From a virus, in the IMG/VR virus record IMGVR_UViG_3300046464_000129, positions 1-64,000 of that record: 64,000 bases of DNA; one strand, 5' to 3'. Under the pieces are notes generated by a model. The model was not told the DNA's origin and searched no databases. It saw only the letters and a program-made list of their open reading frames with translations. The position numbers were made by a program, and so were the translations under genes. Positions within the stretch are counted from its first letter, which is position 1, and the number at the start of each line of letters is the position of its first letter. This document shows positions 158 to 29,536 of this stretch, in pieces.

Positions 158-384
158 TCGCTCATTTTTTTAACAAAATATTCCCATTCTGAAAATAGAG
201 TTACTCTTATCCAATTATGTCTAGGATCAACACTAGTTAGATACCTTTCTATCCAGTACCAGCTAAACCAAACAATTTTACCACTAGACATTTTTTTTGG
301 TAACCATGCAAACTTTTTTGTTGGTTCCATATTTGTTGTCATTCTAAGTGGTGTATTAGTTAATACCTTTTTTAAATGTTTCAT
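154..384 (-). CDS. Small hypothetical protein, last gene of the rSAM operon
   Basis: About 76 residues if the ATG at 382-384 is used. This start has a weak AGG just upstream and overlaps the preceding rSAM gene end by 29 bases. In-frame ATGs at 342 and 330 would avoid the overlap but lack a Shine-Dalgarno sequence. The protein is basic and tryptophan/phenylalanine rich (FSWYWIERYL, SEWEYF). No family is recognised. It is the last minus-strand gene before the convergent plus-strand gene. Confidence 0.5.
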   Translation of the reverse strand: MKHLKKVLTNTPLRMTTNMEPTKKFAWLPKKMSSGKIVWFSWYWIERYLTSVDPRHNWIRVTLFSEWEYFVKKMSD

Positions 385-1540
385 CGCCTGGAAATAATGG
401 CATCTGAGTGCCTGGTTTACGTTTTGGTATTTTACTATCAGCACTTGATACACAAGCACCAGTAGTACATTTTACAGGACCATCAAATAGTTTGAATCCT
501 GTTTCAATGTTTCCTAAAGGCTGATCGTGACAGCTATAACTTCTTTTAATACTACCATCTGGTTCACGTATAATAATTGATCTATATCCACTACTACATT
601 CCCAACCTTCAAACTTATTAAAATTAAAAGCATTAAATCTTTCTGCTTGATCCATATACCAAGGACTGCCTTCTTTATCTCTAAACTCAATTTGCATATG
701 CCATGGCACATCTGCACTTTGTTTTCTATAATGATCGTCTTTATCAATTTTAAAATTAGGTTTAGGTCTTACAACTAATTGTCGTTGTTGTGCTTTAGCT
801 TCTGTATATGCTCTTTGTGGCATTCCATTATAAAGCCTTTGTTTCATTTCATCTGTATAGCCGTCTACAATTTTACTTGCAGTAGGATCTGATTGAGGTT
901 TTAATGTAACATTAATTCCTTGTTCATGAAAGAACAATGCATTTTCCCAATCTCTTTCAAACCATTCTGGAACCATAACTTGATTAATTGTAATTTGTAC
1001 ATCATGTTCTTGACAAAATATAAGTTTATCAGCAAACGCCTGCATTTTTTCTTTTGAGTCAACGTGCTCTGTATGCAAACTTGCAGTAATACTTGCTCTA
1101 TGAAATTTACTTGCATAATCAACATATGTTCCAAACCATTTCATATTACGACTACAGTTTGAAGTCATATGTACACTTGTATAATTTGTATTGTGTGCAT
1201 CATCTGATAGATGCTTCATTATATCTAAATAGCCAGGGTGGAATGTTGGCTCACCTCCACTTAAACTAAAATGAAAACTATTGAAGCCACGTTCACGAGC
1301 TTGACGTTTTATTTCATCTACAGTTTTTAAACAAAGTTCTGTAGGTCTATGATCTTTTCTATCGCTTCTAGCATAAGGCCAACAGTAACTACATTTGTAA
1401 TTACAGAATCTTCCTAGTAGCCAACTAACAGTAAACATATCTCTATACAACATTGTACGTTGACCTACTCTAACTAGATCATTATACGGTGTTGCAGTAA
1501 AATCGTATTCACTCCATTTTAAGTCTTTATCTTTACTCAC
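356..1540 (-). CDS. Radical SAM protein with C-terminal SPASM-like domain
   Basis: 394 residues starting at GTG, chosen because AGGAGAGG lies just upstream. The rSAM core has C46, C50 and C53 (FCNYKCSYC) and a LSGGEP motif, expected to bind a [4Fe-4S] cluster and SAM. A C-terminal cysteine module (C315, C337, C358, C363) resembles SPASM/twitch domains that hold auxiliary Fe-S clusters in peptide- and protein-modifying rSAM enzymes. There is no N-terminal twitch, unlike most paralogs here. It is the intact counterpart of the split pair at 4469-5185 and 3089-3490. The substrate is unknown. Confidence 0.93.
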   Translation of the reverse strand: MSKDKDLKWSEYDFTATPYNDLVRVGQRTMLYRDMFTVSWLLGRFCNYKCSYCWPYARSDRKDHRPTELCLKTVDEIKRQARERGFNSFHFSLSGGEPTFHPGYLDIMKHLSDDAHNTNYTSVHMTSNCSRNMKWFGTYVDYASKFHRASITASLHTEHVDSKEKMQAFADKLIFCQEHDVQITINQVMVPEWFERDWENALFFHEQGINVTLKPQSDPTASKIVDGYTDEMKQRLYNGMPQRAYTEAKAQQRQLVVRPKPNFKIDKDDHYRKQSADVPWHMQIEFRDKEGSPWYMDQAERFNAFNFNKFEGWECSSGYRSIIIREPDGSIKRSYSCHDQPLGNIETGFKLFDGPVKCTTGACVSSADSKIPKRKPGTQMPLFPGDETFKKGIN

Positions 1541-1808
1541 TGTCGTCCTCTCCTAAGATATGGATAGTACCACATCCTCTACATTTACAAGTAGTTTTTG
1601 ACATTTTTAATATCATACAACATTGTTTCATTTTTCTTTTATTTGTAAAATAAAAGCATCTAGTATTCCATTCCCAATAATCAGTAACATCTTGTGACCA
1701 CCATGCTTTTCCTTTTTTTCCTAAATTTAGTTCTAAATACTTTTCAAACCAATCTACAGATTTATCTTTTTCGTCCATATGATAGTTTACTAAAATTCTA
1801 TGTTTCAT
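1533..1808 (-). CDS. Small hypothetical cysteine-rich protein
   Basis: 91 residues starting at ATG 1806-1808, overlapping both neighbours by a few bases, which suggests translational coupling between two rSAM genes. The C-terminal part has CC, then C-K-C-R-G-C-G near the end, a possible metal-binding knuckle. The N-terminal half is rich in W, Y and charged residues. No known family is recognised. It could be a small partner or substrate of the flanking rSAM enzymes, but that is only inferred from position. Confidence 0.7.
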   Translation of the reverse strand: MKHRILVNYHMDEKDKSVDWFEKYLELNLGKKGKAWWSQDVTDYWEWNTRCFYFTNKRKMKQCCMILKMSKTTCKCRGCGTIHILGEDDSE

Positions 1809-3099
1809 CTATTTGATCCAACTTATTATTAAACTTGCGATATTGTTCATATTTTTCATCATGCTTATTATTCTTAATAGCAGTTTCTAACCAACTAATA
1901 GCTCCATTGATGTGAGTTTCTAACATAAACCTTCTAGGAGTATTGCGTCTATCCTGGTGGTTTAAGCTGTCAAATACCCGTTTTAAGCCGTCTATTCCTG
2001 TTTGGAGCTCTGTAGGGTGCTGAACGTTTGCATGAAGGAAATCTGGCCATTGTAGACGGCTAGTATGCCAATGAATACCAAGTTCAAATACAATAGCTTC
2101 AGCAGTCTCGCCAAGCTCTTTTGCATTCATGCCACTAATGCAAGTAGTACCTTTTATAACATCTAGGTTATCTAATTCTGATTTACATAGTTCTATGTTT
2201 GATTTTAGCAAATCCCAATCGCTTTCTCTTCTTATACGTTCATTTAATTCTTTATATCCATCTATACTAATAGTTAGTTTAATGTTTTTAAACTTTTTCC
2301 ATATATCTATAATATGCTTTTTACCTAACTTCATAATACTTAAATTGGTACTATATTTTAATGTAACTTTTTCTGGATTAGGTACTGCTTCTAAAACTCT
2401 ATAATGAATGGGATCCATAAGTGGCTCCCCTCCAGCAAATTCTAATTCTTCAACGTGTTCCATTAATCCTATTAATTGTGAAATAAACTTCTCATCTCTT
2501 TCATATAGATTCATAACACGTCTTTTATACATATCATTCTTTTCTACAATATCGCCTATATATTCTTGATCACCTTTGCCATAAAATTCTTTAACTTTAT
2601 CCCAATCTTGCATCCATTTAGAACTATCTTTTGGCCAACACATTCTACATTTAAAATTACATACATTTGAAAGTTTTAGTTCTAGTAAAGGTATATTAAA
2701 ATCAACTTCTCTATGCTCTAAATACTGTATTACATTTTTTCTTGTTGTCTCTTGGTCCATTGTATCTGTAATTCTATTTAATCTTAGACTAACAATATCC
2801 TGTGCTTCCATTTTCCAGCAATTTCTACATTGTGGTATTTTTTCTCCTAGCAATAATGAATCTCTAACCTCATTCATATATTCGCCATTCCAGTATTCTT
2901 TTAAATCAAAATCTGGATCACTTACATTTGGATTTCTTCCATCACGTGGAGGTTGTCCTCTACAACATAGTTTTATTTCTCCTTGTGGCATAGTGCTTAT
3001 ATGATTAAATGGTAGTGGACAAAATGTAGATTTATCAACAGGAAGTTTTCCTATCTTGCCTATGGCTCTTTCGTAAAACTTTATATAATTACTTTTCAT
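1798..3099 (-). CDS. Twitch-domain radical SAM protein
   Basis: 433 residues. The N-terminal twitch-like module has C27 (FCPLPFNH), the C45-C46 pair after a small-residue turn, and C91-x2-C94. The rSAM core has C147, C151 and C154 (VCNFKCRMC) and GGEP at about 223-226. This layout matches the family of rSAM proteins with an N-terminal twitch domain carrying a likely auxiliary Fe-S cluster. The start overlaps the upstream SPASM fragment gene by 11 bases. Radical chemistry is expected from the family, but the substrate cannot be read from the sequence. Confidence 0.95.
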   Translation of the reverse strand: MKSNYIKFYERAIGKIGKLPVDKSTFCPLPFNHISTMPQGEIKLCCRGQPPRDGRNPNVSDPDFDLKEYWNGEYMNEVRDSLLLGEKIPQCRNCWKMEAQDIVSLRLNRITDTMDQETTRKNVIQYLEHREVDFNIPLLELKLSNVCNFKCRMCWPKDSSKWMQDWDKVKEFYGKGDQEYIGDIVEKNDMYKRRVMNLYERDEKFISQLIGLMEHVEELEFAGGEPLMDPIHYRVLEAVPNPEKVTLKYSTNLSIMKLGKKHIIDIWKKFKNIKLTISIDGYKELNERIRRESDWDLLKSNIELCKSELDNLDVIKGTTCISGMNAKELGETAEAIVFELGIHWHTSRLQWPDFLHANVQHPTELQTGIDGLKRVFDSLNHQDRRNTPRRFMLETHINGAISWLETAIKNNKHDEKYEQYRKFNNKLDQIDET

Positions 3100-3490
3100 T
3101 TTTGTAATCCTTTAGAAGAGAATCTAACTCATCATCAATAGCGTCTTTTGAATGTTTTGATTCGTGTCCTATTCTAACTCTGTCAACGTGTTTAGGTAAT
3201 GCTTTAGTTAATTGCACATCTGCCGCACATACACAACTTGGTTTAGTACACATTATAGTTTCTTCAGGCATTTCAAAACCATCATATATATTTCCTAGCT
3301 TACCTCCAACCTTACATATAGCTCTATATACGTCACCGGTATTGCTTATGGTAATGTTTTGTACACCTGCCCAACATTCCCAACCACGAAAGTCATTTAG
3401 TTCTTTGGCCATAATATTGTTAACATTATCTTCTTCACTTGTTCCATCTTTGTAATGTACAATAATATTTTTAAAGTTATTAATTGCCAT
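3089..3490 (-). CDS. Stand-alone SPASM-like domain (C-terminal half of split rSAM 'A')
   Basis: 133 residues with no rSAM core. C39 (GWECWAG), C59, C81, C86 and C88 line up with the C-terminal cysteine module of the intact rSAM at 356-1540 (GWECSSG, SYSCHDQ, KCTTGAC), and both then run into an A-D-x-x-x-x-K segment. It starts inside the end of the preceding gene (GATGGCAATTAA, 11-base overlap). I infer it is the C-terminal half of the gene whose core is at 4469-5185, separated by an inserted rSAM pair. The two halves may act as a two-subunit enzyme, or this may be a relic. Confidence 0.8.
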   Translation of the reverse strand: MAINNFKNIIVHYKDGTSEEDNVNNIMAKELNDFRGWECWAGVQNITISNTGDVYRAICKVGGKLGNIYDGFEMPEETIMCTKPSCVCAADVQLTKALPKHVDRVRIGHESKHSKDAIDDELDSLLKDYKNEK

Positions 3491-3860
3491 CTAAATGTTC
3501 CTCTGTTTCAGCTCTACCGTATCCTCTGTCTGTTTCTTTGTAACCTGTGCCTGGTGTAGTATTATTTTTCTTACATAATTGTAAACACGGACTTGGTAAA
3601 TCTAATGTTTCATGCCCATCTAATATTGCTTTAAATACATCTGAATCGTATATTTCTTGCATTGTACTAATTTTTATATTTAACTTTGCAAGATTTAGAC
3701 CTTTTTGTTCACACCATTTTTCTAATTTTTGCCAGTTAAGGCGCGAACCATAAAAGTTACAAGGTCTCACATCACCAGTAGCACCTAATTGAATATTGTT
3801 TTTAATCATATTATCATCGTGTGTACATCTTGGTTCTAAGGCTGGGTTAATCTTATACAT
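3480..3860 (-). CDS. Stand-alone SPASM-like domain (C-terminal half of split rSAM 'B')
   Basis: 126 residues from the ATG at 3858-3860, which overlaps the TAA of the preceding core gene (ATGTATAA) and has an AGGA upstream. C12, C34 (ATGDVRPCNF) and C92-x3-C96 match the order of cysteines in the C-terminal SPASM part of the full-length rSAM at 17252-18301. The open frame extends upstream of this ATG to 3902, so a fused product could also arise by frameshift. No catalytic core is present. It probably supplies auxiliary cluster ligands to the core encoded just upstream. Confidence 0.75.
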   Translation of the reverse strand: MYKINPALEPRCTHDDNMIKNNIQLGATGDVRPCNFYGSRLNWQKLEKWCEQKGLNLAKLNIKISTMQEIYDSDVFKAILDGHETLDLPSPCLQLCKKNNTTPGTGYKETDRGYGRAETEEHLDGN

Positions 3861-4476
3861 ATGGATTATCCTCGCCTTTTTGAATTCCGTAATTATCTTC
3901 ACCTCGCAAACTTACTACAGGATTAAATCTATCAAATCCTAAATCCATTGCCATTTGCCTAGCCGTCTCAACTTGATGTTCATTGTATTTAAAAATTAAC
4001 ATTTTCCATTCTAGTCTGGGTCTTCTTTCTTTTGGTATACTAGTCATCCATTTTACGCCAGTCATTATTTGTTTCCACTTTGCATTTATTCTATAGATAT
4101 GATTAGTGTCTTCTAACCCATCTATGTTAAAAACAAACTCACAACGTTTCCAAGATTGTTCAGCGGCTTTTTGCCAAAACTTTTCTGGTTTAGCACTACC
4201 ATTTGTATGTACTTGTGTCCACTTATCTCTTTCAACAAAATAACTCATAATTTCTAAAAAATCTGGATGATATATTGCATCACCATAACAACCACAAAAT
4301 GTATATCTTTTAAAATTTGTAGTATCTGCTATATTAAATAATAATTCTTTATCTAAATGTCCTGCGTCCCATATACCACCATGATTTATATCTTTCATTC
4401 TTGAACAAGCTGGACATTGTAAAACACATTTACTAGTTATTTCAATTTCTAATTTATCATCTGGTTGATTATGCAT
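3853..4476 (-). CDS. Radical SAM core-only protein (N-terminal half of split rSAM 'B')
   Basis: About 207 residues from the ATG at 4474-4476, preceded by ACGAGAAA and overlapping the stop of the upstream gene. The core motif is C17, C21, C24 (SKCVLQCPAC). The usual GGEP is replaced by G-C-Y-G-D-A, comparable to GNWGDP in the related gene at 17252-18301. Both also share a N-G-S, a D-G-L-E-D-T-x-H-I-Y-R and an E-H-Q-V-E segment. The protein ends before any SPASM module, which is encoded next in another frame. Confidence 0.85.
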   Translation of the reverse strand: MHNQPDDKLEIEITSKCVLQCPACSRMKDINHGGIWDAGHLDKELLFNIADTTNFKRYTFCGCYGDAIYHPDFLEIMSYFVERDKWTQVHTNGSAKPEKFWQKAAEQSWKRCEFVFNIDGLEDTNHIYRINAKWKQIMTGVKWMTSIPKERRPRLEWKMLIFKYNEHQVETARQMAMDLGFDRFNPVVSLRGEDNYGIQKGEDNPYV

Positions 4477-5185
4477 TTTCTCGTAACCAACTTTCTTCTT
4501 CAGGACTATAATACTGTCCTGCAAATTTAATAGTTTCTTCGTGTAAAGGATGTTGTCCTAACATACCATCACTGTGTGGTTTGTTCCAACCTGTTCTATC
4601 CATATTGACTCTTGGTCTTATTTTACGAATAGTATATTCAACACCCATATCTTTTAATTCGTCTGTTATCTCAATCCATTTATCTTTCATTCCAGGTAAT
4701 GCCATAATATGAACGTGCATACCTTTCCATTGATCTTGTTCTCTATACTTTTTAATTTCTTCCCACATACCTCTTACATTGTTAATTACTTTTTCATGAT
4801 ATGCAAATTCAAAATGATAGCTTATAATCATATAATGTAAATATGGCAATGCTTTTTTATATATCTTTGGAGGAGGACTTCCATTGGTTGTTACACTACA
4901 TCTGTATACACCATTTTCTCTAGCATACTTTAACATATCAACAAACCTTGGATTAACAAATGGCTCACCGCCTGTAAAACTTATTTTTATTTTTTTACCT
5001 TTTGATGCTTCTACAATTTTATCTATAGTGGAGGTGTATACTTCCCAAGGCATAGAATCACTTGTAGCATCATGTAGTTCGTTACCACAGTAACTACAAT
5101 TATAATTACAACGTTTACCTATGTTCCACTCAACTCTTAAAAGTTCATCTTTAGCTGGAAAGTTATCTTCAATACCTACTAGCAT
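4469..5185 (-). CDS. Radical SAM core-only protein (N-terminal half of split rSAM 'A')
   Basis: 238 residues with C26, C30, C33 (RCNYNCSYC) and TGGEP at about 71-75. It resembles the core of the rSAM at 356-1540 but ends after a Y-Y-S-P-E-E-E-S-W-L segment, where that protein runs on into a SPASM module. The matching module is found 1 kb downstream at 3089-3490. It overlaps the stop of the next gene upstream by 7 bases, consistent with coupled translation. Confidence 0.88.
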   Translation of the reverse strand: MLVGIEDNFPAKDELLRVEWNIGKRCNYNCSYCGNELHDATSDSMPWEVYTSTIDKIVEASKGKKIKISFTGGEPFVNPRFVDMLKYARENGVYRCSVTTNGSPPPKIYKKALPYLHYMIISYHFEFAYHEKVINNVRGMWEEIKKYREQDQWKGMHVHIMALPGMKDKWIEITDELKDMGVEYTIRKIRPRVNMDRTGWNKPHSDGMLGQHPLHEETIKFAGQYYSPEEESWLRENA

Positions 5186-6357
5186 ACAAAGTATTCCTTT
5201 AGTTCTGGAACTGCTTCAACTACATTGTCTCCACGTAGTTTATCTAAATCTTTTGTGTAATTAATAAAGATGTCCCATTGTTCTTCATTAAAAGTTCTTT
5301 TGTTCATACTCTTTACTAATTTTTTAAAATCATCATAAATTGACAATCTTTCTACTGCCTGGTCTCTTAAATTATCTGGTAAATTCATTGGACTCAAATA
5401 AGCAGGTTGATTACAAATAGTAGTAAAACTATTATTAGCACTTACTCTTGGGTATTTATCTTCTAATTCGTTAAGGAAATTATGCAACTCTGGTAGATTG
5501 AATACATTGTAGTTTTGTAATGTTACATTAAACATTATTTGCACGTTTTCCAATTTGCTATATTCAGCTAATGTTTCTTCCAACTGTTCTATATTATATT
5601 TGCCACCTCTTATATAAGAATAAAGTTTACCAGTACCTTCTATACTAAAACATATACTAACACGTTTGAACTGTTTTAGCAAGTTTAAAATTTTAGGATT
5701 TTGTACTGTACCATTTGTTGTATAAAACAATTCTATGTCTGTCATGCCTTCTTCAATTAACCATTGTAGGAATTGATTGTGATGTTTTGCCATCATAGGC
5801 TCGCCACCTTTGAAGTCTATTCTCATAACATCTTTTAAGTGTGGTAGTAAGTTTCTTAAATCTTCTAGACTATATTGTAGCAACGGAACTTCGTTAATAT
5901 TTTTTTGATATCTTTTATCAATCTTTGCTAATGCTATTTCTTCTTTAAACCAACTGTTACTTGCCCAACTTCCACACATACGACATTTTAAATTACATAC
6001 ATTTGACAAGTTAATATCTGCTTGGTATAATTTAGGAAACTCTACAATATTTGTATCTGGTATAATACCTTTTTTAAATTCTTCTTTGTTCTTCATAAAC
6101 TTTTTATTAAACCAAAGACGTCTACTTTCGCCAACTAAATCTTCTCTCTCCCAACAACTCTTACAAGCATCAGGTTGTTTCCCATCTCTAAAATCTTGTC
6201 TTAATTGTTGCATACGTTCACTATTATAGTTTTCCATAATAGTAGGATGTTCTGTATTAGGTTTCCTACCTCTATTGGTAAACTGACAACAAGGTTTAAT
6301 ATCACCATTAGCACTCAATGTAACGGCGTGCCAAGGCATATAACAAAATTTACTCAT
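5179..6357 (-). CDS. Twitch-domain radical SAM protein
   Basis: 392 residues from the ATG at 6355-6357, which shares a base with the upstream stop (TAATG); a TTG three codons earlier is less likely. The N-terminal module has C5 (FCYMPWHA), C23-C24 (KPCCQF) and C65/C68. The rSAM motif is C121, C125, C128 (VCNLKCRMC), with KGGEP following. The C-terminal tail, D-K-L-R-G-D-N then P-E-L-K-E-Y, is shared with several paralogs. The substrate is unknown. Confidence 0.95.
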   Translation of the reverse strand: MSKFCYMPWHAVTLSANGDIKPCCQFTNRGRKPNTEHPTIMENYNSERMQQLRQDFRDGKQPDACKSCWEREDLVGESRRLWFNKKFMKNKEEFKKGIIPDTNIVEFPKLYQADINLSNVCNLKCRMCGSWASNSWFKEEIALAKIDKRYQKNINEVPLLQYSLEDLRNLLPHLKDVMRIDFKGGEPMMAKHHNQFLQWLIEEGMTDIELFYTTNGTVQNPKILNLLKQFKRVSICFSIEGTGKLYSYIRGGKYNIEQLEETLAEYSKLENVQIMFNVTLQNYNVFNLPELHNFLNELEDKYPRVSANNSFTTICNQPAYLSPMNLPDNLRDQAVERLSIYDDFKKLVKSMNKRTFNEEQWDIFINYTKDLDKLRGDNVVEAVPELKEYFVC

Positions 6358-6914
6358 TAAGGCCAATCCTTTTGTATTGGGTCAACACTCAATTCATTAA
6401 CGTTTAAGTGCCAAGGCATATTAACTGCATATTCTATACAATCTACTGCTTCTGATAATTTCATTACTTTTCTATCTGGGTGTTTGTGTGCATTATTTTC
6501 TAGTGTACCAAATGTTACATATGTTACTTTAGGACCGCCTGTCCAAATGCTTTTTAAACCCAATGCGTTGCTAGTTGAACGCAATGCTTTCTTTTCTTGC
6601 TGATACTGCCAATCAGAACCTTTGCTGGTCCTGTCGGTTGTACTGCCTAAACTCACAATATGTAGTCGTTTTAGGTTCTTTAAAGCGTTCTTATAGACTG
6701 TATCTAGTACCAGAGTTTGATGATACTGCCATAGTGCGGAACAGTTAATAAAAACGTCATAATTAAGCACCTTTTCAGCTAACTTGTTTTTATAACCATT
6801 TTCAGTTAAATCGTAACCCCAACCTGTTCTACTTACAAATGTAGTTTCTGGCCAACGATGTGCTATTTCTTTTGCAACACCAAATTCTGGATTACCTGTA
6901 CAGATTATTCTCAT
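6357..6914 (-). CDS. SDR-like oxidoreductase, short
   Basis: 185 residues. The start is MRIICTGNPEFG, a shortened Rossmann-type opening (TGxxxxG), followed by D-V-F-I-N-C-S, a S-L-G strand and Y104-x3-K108 (YQQEK), the catalytic pair of short-chain dehydrogenase/reductases. It is shorter than the usual 230-250 residues, and the family call rests on these motifs only. It lies between rSAM genes with ATGA and TAATG junctions, so it probably acts on the same product or pathway. Confidence 0.6.
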   Translation of the reverse strand: MRIICTGNPEFGVAKEIAHRWPETTFVSRTGWGYDLTENGYKNKLAEKVLNYDVFINCSALWQYHQTLVLDTVYKNALKNLKRLHIVSLGSTTDRTSKGSDWQYQQEKKALRSTSNALGLKSIWTGGPKVTYVTFGTLENNAHKHPDRKVMKLSEAVDCIEYAVNMPWHLNVNELSVDPIQKDWP

Positions 6915-7069
6915 TTACTTTTTCCTGGTTTCTTTTTAGGTTTATACTTTATAAACTTTTTTTCTTCTTTTGCAACACCTATTGACTTTTTAAGTTTTTC
7001 AAATAACTCTTCGTCCATTCCAGCAAATATCCCTCTAGGATCCCTATTGTTTCTTTTGTTATATTTCAT
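6911..7069 (-). CDS. Small basic hypothetical protein
   Basis: 52 residues read from the ATG at 7067-7069. The ATG overlaps the stop of the upstream rSAM by one base (TAATG), and its TGA overlaps the next gene's ATG (ATGA). These perfect junctions on both sides support it as a real gene. It contains a short G-I-F-A-G-M-D-E-E-L-F-E-K-L segment and a lysine/proline-rich end (YKPKKKPGKSK). No family is recognised; the basic tail could bind nucleic acid, which is a guess. Confidence 0.7.
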   Translation of the reverse strand: MKYNKRNNRDPRGIFAGMDEELFEKLKKSIGVAKEEKKFIKYKPKKKPGKSK

Positions 7070-17247: not shown

Positions 17248-17251
17248 ATTA

Positions 17252-18301: not shown

Positions 18302-18304
18302 ATG

Positions 18305-22838: not shown

Positions 22839-22855
22839 TTAGATATTGGTAATAA

Positions 22856-23683
22856 TTAAGTTACAGTATTTTGTTTATCTAAAGCACTAATCATTCTTGT
22901 CATGCCTATACCACCGCCTACACGTGGGAAGAAGTCAAACTTTAAGAACTCTTCTAGTTCTGCTTGTACTCGTTCTTTACCAAATAGTTTAAATAATAGT
23001 TCACTATATGCACCTTCTGTAATAGTATGAAATGTATCTCGCATTTGTTCTACATCACATGAACGTTCTGCACTTCCTATTGTTTCCATTCCACCTAGTA
23101 TTACATCAATCTTCTTTGATTCTGTGTCACCAGGATATCTACTCATATTCCAAAAAGGACTTGTGAATTCTGGAAAGTCTGTAATCATTGCAGTTTTAAA
23201 GTCTTCGTACATTTTAGTTTCATGTTCTGCCTTTAGCTCACCTTCAACACCATAATGACTTTGCCAATCAGCATATGTCATTTCGTATGGTTTTTCAAAG
23301 CCTAAGTAATCTACTAGTTCGTATTCCATTTCTTTTAAATTGTCAATGTTACCTGGCATTTCAAATTCAAACATTGGAAATATTATATCGTGTCTACCTG
23401 GAATAGCATTTGGCTCTTGTCTATAGCTGGTACTTACACAAAAGAAACCTTTTGCATTAGGGTCTGTAAGTAATTCGTGTTCAAGCCACATTTGACCTGT
23501 TTGTGGAAGTGGCCATACTTGACCTGCATAATTGTATGTTGCTACATTAAATGGATCTTCACAAGCGGCAAGTATTGATAATCTGTTTTGGGTATGGACT
23601 TCTTGGAAACCTTTAGCCAAAAAAAATGACCTTAAAAGGCCAACTGCGTCTGTAAATTTTTGTGGGGATATTAACTGTGTCAT
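22856..23683 (-). CDS. AsnA-like class II aminoacyl-tRNA synthetase-fold ligase
   Basis: 275 residues from the ATG at 23681-23683, chosen for its AAGGAAAAAGAA leader; an in-frame start 15 codons earlier lacks support. Class II motif 2 (S-Y-R-Q-E-P-N then R-H-D-I-I-F-P-M-F-E-F-E-M) and motif 3 (G-G-G-I-G-M-T-R) are clear. No anticodon-binding domain is present. This matches the asparagine-synthetase-A/AspRS-like paralogs that adenylate an amino acid and transfer it to ammonia or another amine. Here it may activate an amino acid for the rSAM-associated pathway. Confidence 0.82.
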   Translation of the reverse strand: MTQLISPQKFTDAVGLLRSFFLAKGFQEVHTQNRLSILAACEDPFNVATYNYAGQVWPLPQTGQMWLEHELLTDPNAKGFFCVSTSYRQEPNAIPGRHDIIFPMFEFEMPGNIDNLKEMEYELVDYLGFEKPYEMTYADWQSHYGVEGELKAEHETKMYEDFKTAMITDFPEFTSPFWNMSRYPGDTESKKIDVILGGMETIGSAERSCDVEQMRDTFHTITEGAYSELLFKLFGKERVQAELEEFLKFDFFPRVGGGIGMTRMISALDKQNTVT

Positions 23684-23757
23684 TTCTTTTTCCTTTTCAT
23701 TGTTCAAAAAAAAATATTTGATAGCCAAAAAAAAATCTGATTAATTTGTTATCGTTT

Positions 23758-23764
23758 TATTTAT
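23758..23764 (-). promoter_or_regulatory. T4-late-type promoter box before AsnA-like gene
   Basis: Minus-strand GATAAATAAAACG, overlapping the stop of the amidinotransferase gene and about 75 bases before the start at 23683. Confidence 0.45.
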
Positions 23765-24993
23765 CTTCGTAGCTCGTTATTACCCCATAATCTACCAAAC
23801 TCAATTCCCTGATCTCCACGTTCTGGAAAATAGTCTTCACAATCACCTTCACGTTCTAGATCACTTGTAGCACAATGTAATCCACCGTCCCAGAAGAATC
23901 TGTGTCTCATATTACAAGTAACTACATCTACTTTATGTTCACCTAATTTATCTTCAAGTTCTTTAGCAGGGCCACTAGCAATTACTGTATTCTCATTAAC
24001 ACTCAAACAATTTACATCAAAATTAGTCTCCCAACAAGCACCTACACTAGGGTGCATATATAAATCAATAAATTTATGTAATGCTTCGTTTTGTTCTTCG
24101 CCTGCTATCCAATAATCTGCTACTGGTCTTTTCTTGTTTAATCTCCAGTCATCTTTTACTGTTACTCTATAATCTTGCCAAGCAGTAGTATGATCATTAT
24201 GCTTTCTATCTATTTTAATAACATCCCAACCTGGATATGTTTCTTCATATTTGTTTACATTAGTATGACTAATAAGCAATCCTGGTCTCACTAGAGCTAA
24301 TACTGCATCTGTATGACCACCCATAACTGTAGTATTGATTCTAAAATTGTACCCATACTTTTCATTAAACTTTTTAAACCATTCAACTAATACTTTAGTA
24401 GGGCCATTAAAGTCATGTAAGTCAATCATAATATCTCTACCAGTTCTCATAATACTAGGCCAAGAAATAGCAAATCCTTTGCCTGGGTTTAGTGCCGTTG
24501 CTTCTTTTATTATGTTTAATTCTTGATTCTCATCTCCTAGATCTAAAAAATCATCACAACCTGCCCAAGGTGCATATTCATCTTCAGTAAAGATATTATG
24601 GTTATCAAGCATTGTTTTATTCCATTTTCTAAAAATACTATCACGTTTGCCTGTTAATAATTTTTCACCAAATATAATTTGATCATCTCTAGGTGTATTA
24701 AATGGTCTTGGTATGTATCCTTCTTCTTCTACAAATTCTGTTACACTTTCGTATCTTTTATTATCAGTTACACAAGTATCTGGCATTCTGTAAACTTTTA
24801 CACCATAACTTTCTGTTAATACTTTACAAAAATAATCCAAGTCTTCTCTGGTTTCTTCATTTACTTTCGTCATGACATCTGCTACTTTTTTATCATGATA
24901 GTCTTCAAAGAAGCCTTTAGGAAATACATTTCCCACCATTACCTTTGTTAGTTTATCCCAACTATTATAACTTTTAAATCCAAAATTATTCAT
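23761..24993 (-). CDS. Amidinotransferase-family protein, second copy
   Basis: 410 residues. It begins with S-W-D-K-L-T-K-V-M-V-G-N-V and has V-M-G-G-H-T-D (catalytic His) and C374 in G-G-L-H-C-A-T-S-D, as in the copy at 18642-19706. The shared R-E-G-D-C-E-x-Y ending is followed here by a 22-residue extension (G-I-E-F-G-R-L-W). It is about 56 residues longer, mainly by insertions near residues 80-130. GGAG precedes the ATG. Amidine transfer from arginine is expected; the acceptor is unknown. Confidence 0.86.
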   Translation of the reverse strand: MNNFGFKSYNSWDKLTKVMVGNVFPKGFFEDYHDKKVADVMTKVNEETREDLDYFCKVLTESYGVKVYRMPDTCVTDNKRYESVTEFVEEEGYIPRPFNTPRDDQIIFGEKLLTGKRDSIFRKWNKTMLDNHNIFTEDEYAPWAGCDDFLDLGDENQELNIIKEATALNPGKGFAISWPSIMRTGRDIMIDLHDFNGPTKVLVEWFKKFNEKYGYNFRINTTVMGGHTDAVLALVRPGLLISHTNVNKYEETYPGWDVIKIDRKHNDHTTAWQDYRVTVKDDWRLNKKRPVADYWIAGEEQNEALHKFIDLYMHPSVGACWETNFDVNCLSVNENTVIASGPAKELEDKLGEHKVDVVTCNMRHRFFWDGGLHCATSDLEREGDCEDYFPERGDQGIEFGRLWGNNELRR

Positions 24994-25059: not shown

Positions 25060-26319
25060 TTATTTAGTGACTTCTGATCTAATTCGTTCAAACTCGGGCG
25101 ACACTTTGGTAACCACGTGTTGTCTGAATCTGTCATAGTTTTCTGTGACTTTGACGTATTGACGCATGATGTCAGCATTATACTTATGCTTACTATCAAG
25201 ACTAAAATTAACCACTTCCATAAGTGGCTCTTCGTATTGTTTAAAGTGTGGGCTATTTCCGATACTCTTAAGAAATTCCAATATTTGTTCACGTTGTCTC
25301 TCTTTCAACCATTCTGGAGCATGAGCCATACTATAATATTGAGGTTCAATAAGTTGATTAGTACTCATTCCAATTCCTCTATTACTAGTCATTTGGTAGT
25401 CATGCATAAACTTCCAAAACTTTGTAATGTGAAGTGCATTAGTCATCTGGTTAACTGTAGTAACTCTTACCTTAATACGTTTACCTGCTTTAGTATCTGC
25501 AAACTTAACTAACTTATCAAAGTTCTTCCAAACACTATCCCATTTAGATGGCGGTCTTAAATAATCGTTCATTTCTTCCATACCTTCTAATGAGCAGTTA
25601 ACTATTACACGTTCAAACTTACTTAATTGTTCTAACCATTTGTCTTGCATATTAGTAATGTTTGTATAAAAACTTAACTCAATATGTTCTGCGTGTCCAC
25701 TTTCTACTGCAAGATCTAATAGTTTAAACATATCTTTGGCTACTGTTGGTTCGCCTCCAATTAATTTTATTTTACGAGCATACTTTAACATAGGAGTAAA
25801 ACTTTCCCATTCTATTCCTGGCTGAAGTAATGCTTTTTTCTTTTCTGCAATCATGCCTTTCCAATCCTTGTGATCTAACCCAAGTCCTTGGTCTATCATC
25901 TTTGCACGTTCTATACTTACCAAATGTGATGCTTCTTTGTTACACATTTGACATTGTAAATTACATAGATTTCCTAGTCTAAAATCAAATTGTAAAGGTT
26001 GTTCAACTTCCCAATCATTAGCTGAAGCATCAGCTACTACATCATCAATTACATCTTTCCATTGTTCATTTTCCCATTGTCTTGAACTCATAATGCCATT
26101 ACGTTCTAAGTGTTGACATTCGCCACATTCGGGTAACCATTCGCCTGCAGTCATTTTACGTCTTACTTCTTTTACGTAGTCATGATTCCAAGTACCTTCT
26201 ATACCTAGTTCTTCTTGATTAACTAGTTTTTTAGGTTCTTTGGCCATACAACATAGTCTATAACGTCCACCGTTATATGTACTATATTGAACAAATGGTA
26301 ACGAACAAAATCCGCTCAT
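25060..26319 (-). CDS. Twitch-domain radical SAM protein
   Basis: 419 residues from the ATG at 26317-26319, two bases after the upstream stop; the longer open frame into the nucleosidase gene is not used. C5 (FCSLPFVQ), C23-C24 (RLCCMAK) and C65/C68 (ECGECQHLE) form the twitch module. C119, C123, C126 (LCNLQCQMC) and I-G-G-E-P form the rSAM core. The tail N-Y-D-R-F-R then V-S-P-E-F matches the conserved C-terminal motif. It is translated right after the nucleosidase that would remove its 5'-deoxyadenosine product. Confidence 0.94.
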   Translation of the reverse strand: MSGFCSLPFVQYSTYNGGRYRLCCMAKEPKKLVNQEELGIEGTWNHDYVKEVRRKMTAGEWLPECGECQHLERNGIMSSRQWENEQWKDVIDDVVADASANDWEVEQPLQFDFRLGNLCNLQCQMCNKEASHLVSIERAKMIDQGLGLDHKDWKGMIAEKKKALLQPGIEWESFTPMLKYARKIKLIGGEPTVAKDMFKLLDLAVESGHAEHIELSFYTNITNMQDKWLEQLSKFERVIVNCSLEGMEEMNDYLRPPSKWDSVWKNFDKLVKFADTKAGKRIKVRVTTVNQMTNALHITKFWKFMHDYQMTSNRGIGMSTNQLIEPQYYSMAHAPEWLKERQREQILEFLKSIGNSPHFKQYEEPLMEVVNFSLDSKHKYNADIMRQYVKVTENYDRFRQHVVTKVSPEFERIRSEVTK

Positions 26320-26320
26320 A

Positions 26321-26860
26321 TTATTTACACATCTCCAAAAAGGCACCTGCGCCTTTTGCTTGATTATTTTTCCAACTATCTGCCGCATTCTCATCAGCAA
26401 AATCTGTTACATATTTATAGCAAATAAAAGGCTTGTTAAAATGTTTACAAACTTTTGCTATACCATACGATTCCATATCAACTATATCACTTTCAAGTTC
26501 TGGTGGTGCTTGTACAAAATTATCACCACTACTACAACTCCATGCACTATTTGATATTCTAATATCTCCTGCAAATCCAGTTTCTTCAAAAGGAGTTATA
26601 CCTAACCCAGCTTGTGGTCTTGTATCCATATCACGTTGTTTAACAAGTCCAACCTGAACTAATTGTTCTGCTAGTTCTGTATTTAATGCACCAGCAGTTC
26701 CATAATTAATTACTGCTTCGCAATCAGATTGTATACAAGCCATAGTAGCAAACATTGTAGCATTTACTTTTCCGACTCCATGATACCAGACTTTATATTC
26801 TTCTGGATTTAGATTATGCTCTGGAAGTTCACCTTTCAGAGCTACTAATACATACTTCAT
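26321..26860 (-). CDS. MTA/SAH (5'-deoxyadenosine) nucleosidase-like protein
   Basis: 179 residues. The nucleoside phosphorylase-fold signature is visible: Y-G-T-A-G-A-L-N early, C-S-S-G-D-N-F, then D-I-V-D-M-E-S-Y-G-I-A-K-V with the purine/ribose-binding M-E, and K-Y-V-T-D-F-A-D with the catalytic Asp. It is shorter than bacterial MtnN (about 230). The family cleaves methylthioadenosine, S-adenosylhomocysteine and 5'-deoxyadenosine, the inhibitory by-products of SAM enzymes. It sits between two rSAM genes on tight junctions (TAATG), so a support role is likely. Confidence 0.85.
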   Translation of the reverse strand: MKYVLVALKGELPEHNLNPEEYKVWYHGVGKVNATMFATMACIQSDCEAVINYGTAGALNTELAEQLVQVGLVKQRDMDTRPQAGLGITPFEETGFAGDIRISNSAWSCSSGDNFVQAPPELESDIVDMESYGIAKVCKHFNKPFICYKYVTDFADENAADSWKNNQAKGAGAFLEMCK

Positions 26861-28131
26861 TATTTTTCCTCAATATCTAAATTTGTTAAATCTTCACCAA
26901 AATGTTTCCAGTTCTGATTTAGTCGATGTTTCGCTAACATCAATTCTTTTGTTAAATGCTGATCTAAATTTCCAGTTTCATCTATATGAAATCTAGCTAC
27001 ATCAAGCATTCTGCCTATAGGACTTTTTCTTGCTGGTGGATTGCTATTTTCCCAATCGTTCCATTTCTTTTTAATTCTATCTTTTGTTTCCTTACTAAGA
27101 TTTCTAAAATCTATATAGTCATCATGTCCTGGTGTAATTGGATTAACATTAAACCAGTCTAATTCTTTATCTCCAACTTTACTATATAACCAATCTGCTA
27201 TATCAGTTATTTGTCCTATGTTTAATGCTGTCATAACAGTATTACTAGCAAATTGTATATTAACTTCGTTTGATAGTTCTCTATACTTGTTTACAGTATC
27301 TTCTATCATTTGCCAAGTATATTTGCCTGGCCGTTGTAATGTAGCATTTTCTTTTACCCCATCAAGACTAAAAATAATATGAATTTTTTTAATCTTTTTC
27401 CAACATTCAATAACTCTTCTACTAGGAAAATGACTAGCATTAGTATGATATTCTATTGCTAGTTTTTCTGGAGTATCATTAAGCTGAATAACTTTTTCTA
27501 ATAAGTCATCATGTTTGTGTTCTAGCATAGGTTCACCACCTACAAATTTTAAATAACGTAATTCAGATAAGTCATCATCTATGTTATCATTAGATTCATG
27601 AAAGCCTCTTGGTATTTTCTTTTTAGGAAATTTAATACTGTAGATTGTACTACTAGCATAAGGGCCACACATAACACAAGCCATATTACAAAGACTGCTT
27701 ATACCTGTTTCTAAATATTTTATTTTTGCAGGGCCTGTTGTAGTTTGTCTTGTTTTATCTGTTTTTTCATCAATGTTTAATCTAGGAAGACTTCCTCTAA
27801 CTAATTTGTCGCCAGCATCTTCTGCTTTTAACAAAGAGTCTTCCATACCCCAACATTTTCCACATTGATATGGTCTCTTCCCTTCAATCATTTGTTTTCT
27901 TATACTAGTAAAGTATTCACCTTCTCTGGCTTTTTTTATTCCGTCTCTAATATGAGGAGCTGGATCGTTTTTTGTCCTAGGACCAAAAAATCTGCAACAT
28001 GGCATAACAAGCCCATCAGGGCCAACTGCGGCGCCTGCCCAAAGATATGAACAATAACTTGATGTAGGTAAATCTTCTAGCCTAGATCTAATAGTTGGTG
28101 GTTGGTTATTCTTTTCCATCTTTTGGCTCAT
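26860..28131 (-). CDS. Twitch-domain radical SAM protein
   Basis: 423 residues; the ATG at 28131 or one four codons later (28119) could be the start. C27 (YCSYLWAG), C45-C46 (MPCCRFF) and C90/C93 (QCGKCWGMED) form the twitch module. C148, C152, C155 (LCNMACVMC) and VGGEP form the core. S-L-D-G-V-K-E-N-A-T-L follows the usual pattern. The C-terminal end lacks the R-G-T-D...P-E tail. It overlaps the upstream rSAM gene by 26 (or 14) bases. Confidence 0.94.
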   Translation of the reverse strand: MSQKMEKNNQPPTIRSRLEDLPTSSYCSYLWAGAAVGPDGLVMPCCRFFGPRTKNDPAPHIRDGIKKAREGEYFTSIRKQMIEGKRPYQCGKCWGMEDSLLKAEDAGDKLVRGSLPRLNIDEKTDKTRQTTTGPAKIKYLETGISSLCNMACVMCGPYASSTIYSIKFPKKKIPRGFHESNDNIDDDLSELRYLKFVGGEPMLEHKHDDLLEKVIQLNDTPEKLAIEYHTNASHFPSRRVIECWKKIKKIHIIFSLDGVKENATLQRPGKYTWQMIEDTVNKYRELSNEVNIQFASNTVMTALNIGQITDIADWLYSKVGDKELDWFNVNPITPGHDDYIDFRNLSKETKDRIKKKWNDWENSNPPARKSPIGRMLDVARFHIDETGNLDQHLTKELMLAKHRLNQNWKHFGEDLTNLDIEEK

Positions 28132-29536
28132 CTAGTAAGTAAGCCATCTCAGGAAATGTTGCACGGAAATCTGTGCCACGAAGTTTATCTAACTTGTTAA
28201 TGTATTCTCTAAATTCAGGAAGTCTACGAGTCCAGTCTTCACTCTTAGCAAACTTAATCATTCCTCTAAGTCTTTTGATTCCATAACTAGCTTCTTCCCA
28301 CTTTTCATATGGTACTTTACCTTTATGCCAGCTAGGAACACCTAGTTCCCAATTTTCTTTCCACCATTCAATAAACTCTTCATACTTGGCTTCAGTCTTA
28401 TCTAAAAACTCTCTTGGTAATACTTTAACATTCAAGTGTCCAGGCCAATATACAAAGTGATAGTTAATACCACCTGCACCAAATGGCCACATATTAGTTT
28501 TCTTTAGTCCGCTTTCCTGAAGTTTCCATTTAAGGAAATCTGGAATATAATGAATGTTTAAGGCATTAACTGCACAGGCAATAGTTACTTCTACATTGTT
28601 TGATGTCATTGTATCCAAACGTTTGAACTGTCTTAAATTATGTTCCCACTCACTTGGATATCTTATATAATCATTCATAGCACCAATGCTATCTACACTA
28701 TAATGCATACGAACTTTTTGAAAGTGTTTCCATTGCTCAAGTAACCTATCTGGTAACTCAATACAGTTTGAATTGTAACGCACTTCAATTTGGTGTGCGT
28801 AACCCATTTCAATAACTTTATCTAAGATTTCATAATGTTCTTCAATAACTGTAGACTCACCACCTGCAAAATATAATTGTCTTATGTACGGTATTTGTTT
28901 CCAAAACTGATCCCAAAACATTGGATTATCTTTGTGCCAATTATAACTTGCATCAAATTCTCTACCTTTTTTCTCCCATACCATAGTATCTTTGAGTGTT
29001 TTATTTTCAATCTGTGGGTGTAATGCTTTCCAGTCTTTAACCCAACCACTCGAGTCATGTGGGCTACACATAACACAGGCTAATTGACATTTGGTTCCCA
29101 TACGTATATCGATGTAACGAAGTTTACTGTCAGTACTTCCATCTTCGTATGTTTCTTTTTTTAATTGTTCTATGTCAATTCCATCTTTAATCCAGTAGTC
29201 CGTTTCCCATTGTCGCTTACTTCTATGTCCTGCGGCTTCTTCCTTGTAGCACTTTAAACAACTTGCCGGTTTTTCGCCGTTCATCATCATCTTACGTACA
29301 CTTCGCATATAAGAATTATTCCAGCTACTATCTAAATCTGAATTATTTAAGTTGGCAGGTCTGCCATCTTCTAGTTTCAAAACTCCAACACGACCACCGT
29401 GCTCTTTGTCGTTTGTAGCACCTACTGAACTTGCATTTGCGGTACAACATACTCTCATACTTCCGTCTGGTCTTGTTGATAAATGAATCCATGGTAGGAT
29501 ACAAAATGTATCCGAAGGTAATTTGTTATCTGACAT
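28106..29536 (-). CDS. Twitch-domain radical SAM protein, longest copy
   Basis: 476 residues. C12 (FCILPWIH), C30-C31 (RVCCTAN) and C93/C96 (SCLKCYKEE) form the twitch module. C150, C154, C157 (KCQLACVMC) form the core, with G-G-E-S in place of GGEP. An insertion after the core and a clear tail (D-K-L-R-G-T-D-F-R-A-T-F-P-E) are present. It is first in its operon, with its own late-type box about 40 bases upstream and AAGG before the ATG. Expression late in infection is inferred. Confidence 0.95.
   Translation of the reverse strand: MSDNKLPSDTFCILPWIHLSTRPDGSMRVCCTANASSVGATNDKEHGGRVGVLKLEDGRPANLNNSDLDSSWNNSYMRSVRKMMMNGEKPASCLKCYKEEAAGHRSKRQWETDYWIKDGIDIEQLKKETYEDGSTDSKLRYIDIRMGTKCQLACVMCSPHDSSGWVKDWKALHPQIENKTLKDTMVWEKKGREFDASYNWHKDNPMFWDQFWKQIPYIRQLYFAGGESTVIEEHYEILDKVIEMGYAHQIEVRYNSNCIELPDRLLEQWKHFQKVRMHYSVDSIGAMNDYIRYPSEWEHNLRQFKRLDTMTSNNVEVTIACAVNALNIHYIPDFLKWKLQESGLKKTNMWPFGAGGINYHFVYWPGHLNVKVLPREFLDKTEAKYEEFIEWWKENWELGVPSWHKGKVPYEKWEEASYGIKRLRGMIKFAKSEDWTRRLPEFREYINKLDKLRGTDFRATFPEMAYLLDEPKDGKE

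Follow-up and report, generated by a model that had tools for sequence, protein, structure and literature searches.

The large T4-like environmental viral genome TARA_ERS488813_N000010 possesses 12 radical SAM (rSAM) genes and a Fe-S carrier gene, and its authors suggest that Fe-S genes also serve viral Fe-S proteins (Nishimura et al. 2017, PMC5332604). The portion of that account considered here gives the gene count, with no mention of a cassette, orthology, selection, a nucleosidase, a SAM synthetase run, a split-gene insert or a cellular counterpart. Pelagimyophages gain radical SAM genes as cassettes in a hypervariable region, and the portion of their description considered here reports no array of the size or conserved order found in this study (PMC7029224). 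KVP40-like Vibrio phages are likewise tailed and carry several rSAMs (5 in KVP40). In SynChlorMet systems the rSAM/SPASM proteins ScmE/ScmF act as a set, and bacterial multi-rSAM cassettes of this kind contain few rSAMs. Here we analyzed a window of 64,000 nucleotides, positions 1 to 64,000 of the 73,389-bp record IMGVR_UViG_3300046464_000129, in which genes are named by their first position.

Results

A reading of the window made without database searches (the sequence-only reading) had counted about 14 rSAM loci in less than 30 kb, namely ten twitch-domain proteins, two full-length rSAM/SPASM proteins (356 and 17252) and two split loci, and profile searches returned the same number and composition (Table 1). 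PF04055 marks 17 places in the record, 14 of them within 356-29536; its curated cut-off is passed at 14 of the 17, those at 4042, 28607 and 65447 lying below it. All 14 catalytic proteins of the array contain CxxxCxxC, match PF04055 (two below the cut-off) and belong to the Radical SAM superfamily. The ten N-terminal-twitch proteins (1798, 5179, 7069, 8283, 12735, 13960, 15997, 25060, 26860 and 28106) all exceed the 170-bit cut-off of NF033640 (N_Twi_rSAM; 191-418 bits), a domain-layout model that names no function, and nine of them keep the twitch double Cys and CxxC, 15997 lacking the double Cys. Pairwise identity among these paralogs is 18-30% (median 25%, 45 pairs), in agreement with the earlier view of a divergent, expanded family. 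The best NCBIfam match of 17252 is ScmF, which it resembles at 61.5 bits, far below the 400-bit cut-off. What had been taken for a partial rSAM copy at the window's right edge belongs to an intact rSAM gene that crosses the window end. Two further full-length rSAMs and one further split pair, identified by CxxxCxxC and position alone, lie in the record beyond the window, and the whole record totals 19 rSAMs. The 19 genes of 356-18301 overlap at every junction except one, and this stretch reads like one operon.

Table 1. Features of the window discussed in the text, with the evidence for each.
Position	Strand	Feature	Evidence
356..1540	-	Full-length rSAM, C-terminal Cys-rich (SPASM-like) domain, 356-type	PF04055 1e-11
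1533..1808	-	91-aa ORF, hypothetical protein	translation
1798..3099	-	N-twitch rSAM	NF033640 294 bits
3089..3490	-	Split rSAM A, SPASM-like half	34% over 80 aa to 356 C-terminal part
3480..3902	-	Split rSAM B, probable Cys-rich half	position and cysteines
3853..4524	-	Split rSAM B, core half	PF04055 7.6e-6, below cut-off
4469..5185	-	Split rSAM A, core half	PF04055 1.9e-16; matches N-terminal part of 356
5179..6366	-	N-twitch rSAM	NF033640 316 bits
6357..6914	-	SDR-like	read from sequence; 68-84% orthologs within cassette of other phages
7069..8286	-	N-twitch rSAM	NF033640 385 bits; 61-79% in 8 other distinct phages
8283..9329	-	N-twitch rSAM	NF033640 191 bits
9307..10092	-	2OG oxygenase, Asp/Asn beta-hydroxylase family	PF05118 (Asp_Arg_Hydrox) 3.2e-12
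10083..11465	-	Cassette protein, paralog of 11465-12748	hhalign E 1.6e-34
11465..12748	-	Conserved cassette protein, paralog of 10083	hhalign
12735..13970	-	N-twitch rSAM	NF033640 321 bits
13960..15099	-	N-twitch rSAM	NF033640 226 bits
15099..16004	-	PLP fold-type-I aminotransferase-like	PF00155 8.4e-5; PDB 3if2 (aminotransferase) 4e-4
15997..17265	-	N-twitch rSAM without twitch double Cys	NF033640 258 bits; Cys list
17252..18301	-	Full-length rSAM/SPASM	PF04055 7.8e-14
18642..19706	-	Amidinotransferase	HsvA 1.8e-25, SxtG 8.6e-21
19808..20638	+	2OG oxygenase-like by reading	65-80% in 6/7 phages
20633..21316	-	Nitroreductase-like	PF00881 0.008, below cut-off
22856..23728	-	Class-II synthetase-like (AsnA-like)	PF00152 3.5e-15
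23761..24993	-	Second amidinotransferase-like	read from sequence; relatives in 3/7 phages, 42-72%
25060..26400	-	N-twitch rSAM	NF033640 305 bits; 75-86% in 6/7 phages
26321..26860	-	MTA/SAH-type nucleosidase	PF01048 3.8e-16; 41-72% in 6/7 phages
26860..28131	-	N-twitch rSAM	NF033640 222 bits; best matches 33-60% in 4/7 phages
28106..29536	-	N-twitch rSAM, 28106-type	NF033640 418 bits
45023..45469	-	Flavodoxin	PF00258 1e-28
45448..46536	-	MetK, S-adenosylmethionine synthetase	three Pfam domains, best 1.3e-58
46533..46931	-	SufE-like sulfur transfer	PF02657 1.8e-28
46931..47317	-	IscU Fe-S scaffold	TIGR01999 213.9 bits (above cut-off, 192.4)
47628..48524	-	QueE-like rSAM, 7-deazaguanine pathway	phrog_2076 7e-54; adjoins supply genes
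63693..64000	-	N-twitch-like rSAM, 3' end	intact gene at 63693-64835 of record, 380 aa

One split rSAM encloses an insert of variable content: 4469 and 3089 match opposite ends of 356 (E=4e-13 each), and the second split rSAM (3853 and 3480) sits between them. Against one full-length rSAM/SPASM relative encoded in this record, BLASTP gave a match at 1e-31 for 3853 and none for 3480; in L012 a 3480 homolog (62%) follows one of 3853. Orthologs of 3089 occur in five other distinct phages with a median dN/dS of 0.065; the halves are encoded separately in six phages as well as in a contig of Bdellovibrionales (L122). Decay of 4469 and 3089 was considered and rejected, the pair being a stable two-gene form.

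The proposed phylogeny and gene-neighbourhood comparison were carried out; in counting distinct phages, L010 (identity to the query 100%) and the near-copies L014 and L020-L023 were left aside. In eight other distinct phages most rSAM orthologs have 49-88% identity and the cassette is colinear with that of the window, and in the tree the cassette rSAMs fall into old ortholog groups and not into one recent clade with inactivated cores, the motifs being intact. Median dN/dS is 0.065-0.135 for ten cassette rSAM genes, values that are rough because gene-median dS (0.9-2.0) is near saturation. Divergent paralogs, similar colinear orthologs and low dN/dS therefore indicate an old set under purifying selection. 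By sequence, each rSAM tested is a separate old lineage whose order is kept across phages under purifying selection, and there is good support for selection acting on intact enzymes. The block 17252-29536 is also present in six of seven phages with an adjoining stretch; in the seventh (G014) no rSAM of this block was found within the adjoining 20 kb. Since six of the seven phages retain 28106, 26321, 25060, 19808 and 18642 alongside the cassette, the extent of about 30 kb given by the sequence-only reading is right. KVP40-like phages have weak homologs of 7069 (19-28%), but no gene of the 356-type or of the 28106-type turned up in them or elsewhere among 50,697 deposited phage records (E<=1e-10), and the literature searched describes no such phage system, as had been supposed.

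The conserved set includes a PLP enzyme, a 2OG oxygenase, an SDR, an amidinotransferase and a paralogous pair. Of the other interleaved genes listed in the initial reading, the AsnA-like 22856 has no relative in the seven adjoining phage stretches, and the nitroreductase is placed elsewhere in the cassette in the 4 of 13 related loci that have it (two of these four are near-copies). Residues D160, S185 and K188 of 15099 are invariant across 16 sequences. 18642 is strongly conserved with the array (84-90% in six of seven phages) and matches inosamine-phosphate amidinotransferase at 2e-18, and its solved relatives include an aminocyclitol enzyme. In the paralogous pair, 10083 is the fastest-evolving cassette gene tested (median dN/dS 0.30); 11465 had no match in Pfam, PHROG or PDB sequences and its structure model is poor (pLDDT 53). 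No family match was found for 6357 in Pfam or NCBIfam or for 23761 in Pfam, and Pfam gave 19808 a sub-threshold RecT match and no 2OG oxygenase support.

The sequence-only reading was silent on the nucleosidase 26321 and on the flavodoxin, MetK, SufE and IscU genes, which form one run (45023-47317) apart from the array. The alignment of 26321 with an MTA/SAH nucleosidase of solved structure covers the ME...SDxAD segment. Its best NCBIfam scores (74.9 of 129 bits for PRK05634 nucleosidase and 57.4 of 169 bits) lie below the equivalog cut-offs, so that it is a relative, probably working like such an enzyme, and not an equivalog member. The nucleosidase occurs in 10 of 15 array records, always 371-495 bp from an rSAM domain. 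5'-Deoxyadenosine inhibits rSAM enzymes, and 26321 is a candidate for its removal. MetK was found in 8 of the 15 array records and flavodoxin, a candidate electron donor, in two, both the same phage.

It is quite conceivable, if still the lesser chance, that the supply run serves QueE and 7-deazaguanine synthesis instead of the array. The run adjoins QueE, whose predicted presence in the window was confirmed by its PHROG match, with NCBIfam scores below cut-offs and no Pfam match. Among 80 phage MetK loci, mostly with no array visible, QueE is nearby in 49, FolE in 27 and a profile-detected rSAM in 15; since MetK is common in phages where no array is visible and usually beside QueE, it may serve QueE. 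Moreover, MetK was not found in 7 of the 15 array records, several of which are fragments. However, a single QueE would scarcely require its own IscU, SufE and flavodoxin, and five of the 15 array records carry IscU, two of these five (G013 and G014) with no MetK found. The complete four-gene run was seen in 2 of the 80 MetK loci, one being the same phage.

In Bdellovibrionota MAGs a smaller core comprises three types of rSAM and, in many cases, a protein with a GT-A fold. Among 17 loci counted as cellular, the 356-type is present in 16, the 28106-type in 15, the L009:2836-type in 14 and a protein read from sequence as MTase-like in 8; the 356-type and 28106-type are core members common to Bdellovibrionota MAGs. 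Orthologs of 356 share 77-87% identity in seven phages and 53-79% in 23 genome loci, and those of 28106 share 81-89% in six of seven window-type phages and 50-66% in 33 relatives. The AF2 model of the GT-A protein (L009:6595-7299, outside the window; pLDDT 87) best matches B4GALNT1 (Z 11.5), and 36 PDB chains, mostly glycosyltransferases, match the protein at E<=0.001. Its DxD is at residues 57-59, with D59 invariant in 15, and a two-domain relative (L122:8326-9876) has a Glycos_transf_2 match of 6.9e-7 within the homologous part. The model thus presents a GT-A fold with DxD and a predicted transferase; nucleotidyltransferases, MobA among them, share the GT-A fold. The phage record carries this GT-A protein outside the cassette, and other glycan genes in the window encode an NDP-sugar epimerase, a GT1 and a UDP-Glc/GDP-Man dehydrogenase. 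Against a sugar reading, the GT-A protein was seen in only 10 of the 17 cellular loci and in 5 of 80 phage 356-type windows (each up to about 21 kb, so that farther genes are missed).

Discussion

We tentatively propose, at slightly below an even chance, that the phage runs a pathway of several steps, built mainly from rSAM enzymes, and that this pathway probably tailors a product containing sugar. Each rSAM would carry out its own step on one shared product or on related positions of it, and the PLP, 2OG, SDR and amidinotransferase proteins would perform further steps. MetK would provide SAM, IscU/SufE clusters and flavodoxin electrons, and 26321 would clear inhibitory 5'-deoxyadenosine. Less certainly, the product may carry a sugar, whether as a surface glycan, as a virion or cell component bearing sugars, or as a free glycoside; the grounds are that the smaller chromosomal version often keeps the GT-A protein and that the phage record has this protein and other glycan genes. 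A sugar-based product is our best guess, and we infer the target. BtrN, NeoN and AprD4, twitch or SPASM rSAMs that alter sugars, offer precedent; no match to them appeared in the searches made here. The likely benefit would be a surface altered during infection, for example by receptor change or exclusion of other phages. Weighing against the pathway, no rSAM reaches the cut-off of a family with known function. The original interpretation is partly supported: the expanded, divergent rSAM family and the interleaved tailoring enzymes do look like a modification or small-molecule pathway. Among the targets it named, the glycan has gained evidence from outside the window, a GT-A-fold protein being part of the cellular core, and the peptide option has lost some ground because a comparison around that core in 17 bacterial loci yielded no small ORF that is conserved.

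That the array modifies peptides or proteins, maturing them in a RiPP-like way or giving a host or virion protein unusual residues, seems rather unlikely. Most characterized SPASM/twitch rSAMs do act on peptides, the sole PDB-sequence match of the 28106 profile is the peptide maturase SkfB (0.0038), and 9307 belongs to a protein hydroxylase family. However, no small conserved precursor gene was found close to the rSAMs of the 17 bacterial loci, where comparison of 222 small ORFs at E 1e-4 gave one pair only (L114-L115, which share gene layout), and no RiPP maturase model reached its cut-off for the 14 rSAMs among the best 25 NCBIfam families of each. The amidinotransferase family of 18642 acts on small amines. 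The structural-type protein at 21342-22787, once put forward as a target, is a weak candidate for a common one because it is kept in one of seven adjoining stretches.

We consider it improbable that the rSAMs produce altered nucleotides or nucleic acids, whether by viperin-like chemistry or within the 7-deazaguanine DNA modification that this phage seems to encode. 356 and 4469 match pVip of a defence library (47.6 and 60.5 bits), FolE and QueE are found in the window, and we take 60739-62247 to be DpdA-like from its motif. Against this, 356 and 4469 score 47.4 and 57.8 bits with the prokaryotic viperin model NF038283, far short of its cut-off of 180 bits; viperins are not known to have a Cys-rich C-terminal domain such as that of 356; the cassette is separate from the deazaguanine genes; and neither Pfam nor PHROG supports DpdA at 60739-62247.

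That the array is mere cargo, or a store of captured genes in decay, might be suggested by the split loci and by the hypervariable region of pelagimyophages, in which radical SAM cassettes differ between phages (PMC7029224, in the portion considered). This is very improbable and largely refuted by intact motifs in 14 of 14 proteins, low dN/dS, gene order kept in eight other phages, and split halves that remain separate genes in six phages and L122.

Portal_T4 (PF07230), taken as the marker of a T4-like phage, was found in none of seven window-type records, possibly fragments (one of 204,772 bp), and in five of six large 356-type records and KVP40.

An operon-like array of divergent radical SAM genes

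The radical SAM (rSAM) profile PF04055 matched at 17 places in the 73,389-bp IMG/VR virus record, of which 14 lie in 356-29536, in agreement with the sequence-only reading that had counted about 14 rSAM loci there, and CxxxCxxC is present in all 14. Ten proteins score over the curated NF033640 cut-off for the N-terminal-twitch (N-twitch) rSAM subfamily, and pairwise identity among them is 18-30%. This divergence, together with the long branches between ortholog groups in the tree described below, upheld the earlier view of an expanded family. Three further rSAM loci lie in the record beyond the window, and the gene at the right edge that had been taken for a partial copy is intact and simply runs on past the window end. 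The total for the record is 19 with QueE counted, the last split pair being assigned from motif and position only. The genes from 356 to 19706 show an operon-like layout, in which 18 of 20 junctions overlap and the others are gaps of 3 bp (18301 to 18305) and 154 bp (6914 to 7069).

Features of the array and of other genes discussed in the text (window coordinates; single numbers are gene starts)
Position	Strand	Feature	Remark
356-19706	minus	first overlapping gene run	every listed gene on this strand
356 and 17252		full-length rSAMs	C-terminal Cys-rich domain
4469+3089 and 3853+3480		split rSAM loci
11465-12748		paralog of 10083
18642-19706	minus	amidinotransferase
19808-20638	plus	2OG oxygenase-like	between the two overlapping blocks
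25060-29536		second overlapping gene run	includes nucleosidase 26321
30302-30973 and 49890-50642		putative P-loop sulfotransferases	by sequence reading
32751-35428		MoxR-type ATPase	near DUF2201/VWA protein
45023-47317		flavodoxin, MetK, SufE, IscU	genes overlap or abut
47628-48524		QueE
52277-54964		895-aa protein
56087-56776		FolE
60739-62247		DpdA/TGT-like protein	DSGGFQ motif

The cassette is conserved in order across phages

A viral contig scan with gene 7069 as query yielded 14 loci. L010, which is 100% identical, was set aside together with the near-copies L014 and L020-L023, and the eight other distinct phages (L011-L013, L015-L019) were compared. The order 15997, 15099 (PLP aminotransferase-like), 13960, 12735, 11465, [10083], 9307 (2OG oxygenase), 8283, 7069 is kept in all eight with an occasional extra ORF, 10083 being absent from the L019 cassette. 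In five of them the order continues through 6357 (SDR-like), 5179, 4469, an insert, 3089, 1798 and 356, and a shorter version is found in L017-L019. Identity between rSAM orthologs is mostly 49-88% (as low as 34% for 8283), while that of 11465 is 35-73% and that of 10083 is 30-42%.

The 7069 loci stop near 17252, and adjoining stretches of 15-20 kb were compared for seven phages, leaving two shorter ones (one a near-copy of G002) uncounted. A block composed of 18642 (84-90% identity), 19808 (65-80%, opposite strand), 25060 (75-86%), 26321 (41-72%) and 28106 (81-89%) is kept in six of the seven, which rules out 18642, 25060 and 28106 as window-specific genes; none of the block genes was found in the adjoining stretch of the seventh, G014. 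Relatives of 26860 occur in four of the seven stretches, those of the second amidinotransferase-like gene 23761 in three and those of the AsnA-like synthetase 22856 in none. The structural-type protein 21342, kept in one of seven, was set aside as a target common to the arrays.

A tree of 68 proteins places the cassette rSAMs in ortholog groups that are well supported and separated by long branches, without settling the deep order; 25060, 26860 and 28106 each stand alone in it because it contained no orthologs of them. Median dN/dS is 0.065-0.135 for ten rSAM genes, 0.10-0.18 for four other accessory genes and 0.30 for 10083, values that are rough since dS is near saturation. Judged from these comparisons, the rSAM cassette is old, ordered and under selection in the phages closely compared.

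A putative split rSAM with a variable insert

Genes 4469 and 3089 match opposite ends of 356 and therefore together look like one split rSAM. The space between them is occupied by one or two rSAM modules in the window and five other phages. The window has only the split pair 3853+3480 there, L011, L013 and L015 have a single N-twitch rSAM instead, and L012 and L016 have both kinds. The five N-twitch inserts form a single clade of their own without an ortholog in the window (25-28% to window paralogs), and the flanking halves are conserved at 75-82%. Contig L122, from Bdellovibrionales, carries similar halves (37% and 50%) next to each other, with a 4-bp overlap and no insert. In our reading, 4469 and 3089 would make up a stable enzyme encoded by two genes, with an insert that can be exchanged.

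Related arrays in viruses and a core in Bdellovibrionota

At least 518 loci of the 356 type (full-length rSAM with a C-terminal Cys-rich domain) were confirmed in viral contigs. Among the best 80 of these, 77 windows of up to ~21 kb hold at least two rSAMs, with a median of 7 at loose profile thresholds. PF04055 matches number 7-25 per record in 14 records and 6-23 in 16 hand-picked ones, a sample of 30 that excludes the window's own record and contains some near-copies, whereas KVP40 has five against the 6-25 of the uncultured array records. rSAM enzymes are sensitive to oxygen, and isolated phages are not known as carriers of many rSAM genes. Neither 356 nor 28106 (N-twitch) matched any of 50,697 deposited phage records at E<=1e-10, a set from which records very close to the window's are possibly absent. 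Such a lack of matches for both core genes among deposited phages would account for the system having been overlooked. For gene 7069, 34 deposited phage records matched with identities of 19-28%, of which 33 are from Vibrio phages. The T4 portal was found in five of six other carrier records and in none of seven in the window's own group, whose records are possibly fragments. A search for the T4 capsid gave no match in any record, the controls included.

A pattern-based scan of 84,980 species genomes yielded 23 loci with 356-type genes, mostly in Bdellovibrionota MAGs; the contigs of some are 100-937 kb long. Of the 17 loci counted as cellular, the 356 type is present in 16, the 28106 type in 15, the type of L009:2836 (a gene of the window's own record) in 14, a GT-A protein in 10 and a methyltransferase (MTase)-like protein in 8. 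Since the neighbours are otherwise mostly different between these loci, the set looks like a self-contained core, and its three rSAMs offer an entry point for biochemistry. The 356 tree, rooted at the midpoint and with bootstrap values that had not converged, groups the viral copies in a single clade (100/100). Five MAG contigs fall within or next to this clade, and the remaining Bdellovibrionota copies branch outside. These five contigs (L112, L116, L123, L128, L134), which are labelled as different bacterial groups, may be of viral origin and have been assigned to genomes by binning.

Earlier reports give rSAM gene counts for marine phages, one T4-like genome having 12 (PMC5332604), and describe rSAM cassettes in pelagimyophages (PMC7029224) and rSAM genes as auxiliary genes in viromes (PMC7150976, PMC9301287). 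Within the open-access literature searched, we found no account of rSAM genes ordered in a multi-gene cassette, of the accompanying nucleosidase or of the cellular core. High rSAM counts in phages were thus already reported, and what is new is the gene set and its organisation.

A nucleosidase accompanies the array

Gene 26321 encodes a relative of MTA/SAH-nucleosidases that scores under the equivalog cut-offs. Members of this family occur in 10 of the 15 array records, and in each the distance to an rSAM domain is 371-495 bp. These cases amount to about seven independent ones, since G000 and G001 are almost the same phage and the pairs G005/G006 and G007/G012 appear to be duplicates. MetK was found in eight of the 15 records, IscU in five and flavodoxin in two, both of the same phage. 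Among the 80 nearest phage MetK loci in IMG/VR (L024-L103), QueE is near in 49, an rSAM (found with a profile of our own) in 15 and the full flavodoxin-MetK-SufE-IscU run in two. MetK was therefore rejected as an array marker, as it mostly accompanies QueE, and a SAM-supply link for deazaguanine synthesis is possible. The nucleosidase, beside an rSAM in every carrier, is tied to the array; the flavodoxin-MetK-SufE-IscU genes may serve QueE.

In the window's QueE, the likely cluster cysteines are C34, C38 and C77, with ~38 residues between the second and the third, and this wide spacing accounts for the missing plain CxxxCxxC and the absent Pfam match. FolE and the protein with the DSGGFQ motif, which we take to be a sign of DpdA/TGT, suggest 7-deazaguanine DNA modification.

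The product of the array

The L009:6595 protein (record 68594-69298) was modelled with a GT-A fold at pLDDT 87. Its two-domain Bdellovibrionales relative, L122:8326-9876, consists of two GT-A-type units, 38% and 29% identical to the phage protein, and has a Glycos_transf_2 match (6.9e-7) inside the homologous part. GT2 proteins also lie repeatedly beside the core; one family of them occurs in five of 17 cellular loci, with a Pfam match in both members tested. Relatives of the amidinotransferase conserved in six of seven phages include HsvA, SxtG and the streptomycin-pathway inosamine-phosphate amidinotransferase, an aminocyclitol enzyme. This gene is a handle on the product and fits a small-molecule or sugar product without settling the question. 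The window encodes further sugar genes, and no proven glycosyltransferase was found within the cassette itself. For a peptide product, no precursor-like small ORF was found near the core, and the conserved small ORFs in phage loci look like ordinary phage genes or out-of-frame shadows. On the basis of the GT-A and GT2 proteins, the amidinotransferase, the sugar genes and the lack of a precursor ORF, we favour, with moderate odds, a sugar-bearing product over a peptide.

The AF2 model of 11465 has pLDDT 53, with methyltransferase-like folds as the best structural hints and no PDB structure matched at E<=0.001, and the model was given no weight. Gene 10083 is related to 11465 (hhalign 1.6e-34), but profile comparison linked neither of them to the GT-A or MTase-like proteins. 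The dN/dS of 10083 is about three times that of 11465 and the surrounding rSAMs, and perhaps it faces a changing partner. A search for bacterial homologs of 11465 gave 72 pattern matches, none confirmed, and PDB-sequence searches with the GT-A, MTase-like, 11465/10083, 356 and AsnA-like proteins returned nothing useful.

Because the rSAMs are ordered and under selection in the uncultured phages compared closely, the array product probably matters for infection. With more doubt than belief, we propose that the arrays represent a widespread undescribed class of rSAM assembly line, ancient in Bdellovibrionota and much enlarged in uncultured phages, which would build a chemically new glycan or metabolite from a fixed enzyme frame and exchangeable modules, including the split-rSAM insertion slot, with the phage's own SAM, Fe-S, electron and 5'-deoxyadenosine handling. 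If so, this phage-supplied handling would turn infected cells into dedicated radical-chemistry factories.

Other genes of the window

For the MoxR-type ATPase, identity is 47% to the ATPases of PA5oct-like Pseudomonas jumbo phages and 85-88% to those beside five related arrays. A third putative P-loop sulfotransferase was read at L009:4265-4873. The 895-aa protein has a match to a protease (phrog_3677), together with an apparent signal peptide and an apparent C-terminal beta-barrel, a predicted layout that looks autotransporter-like and is unusual for a phage.
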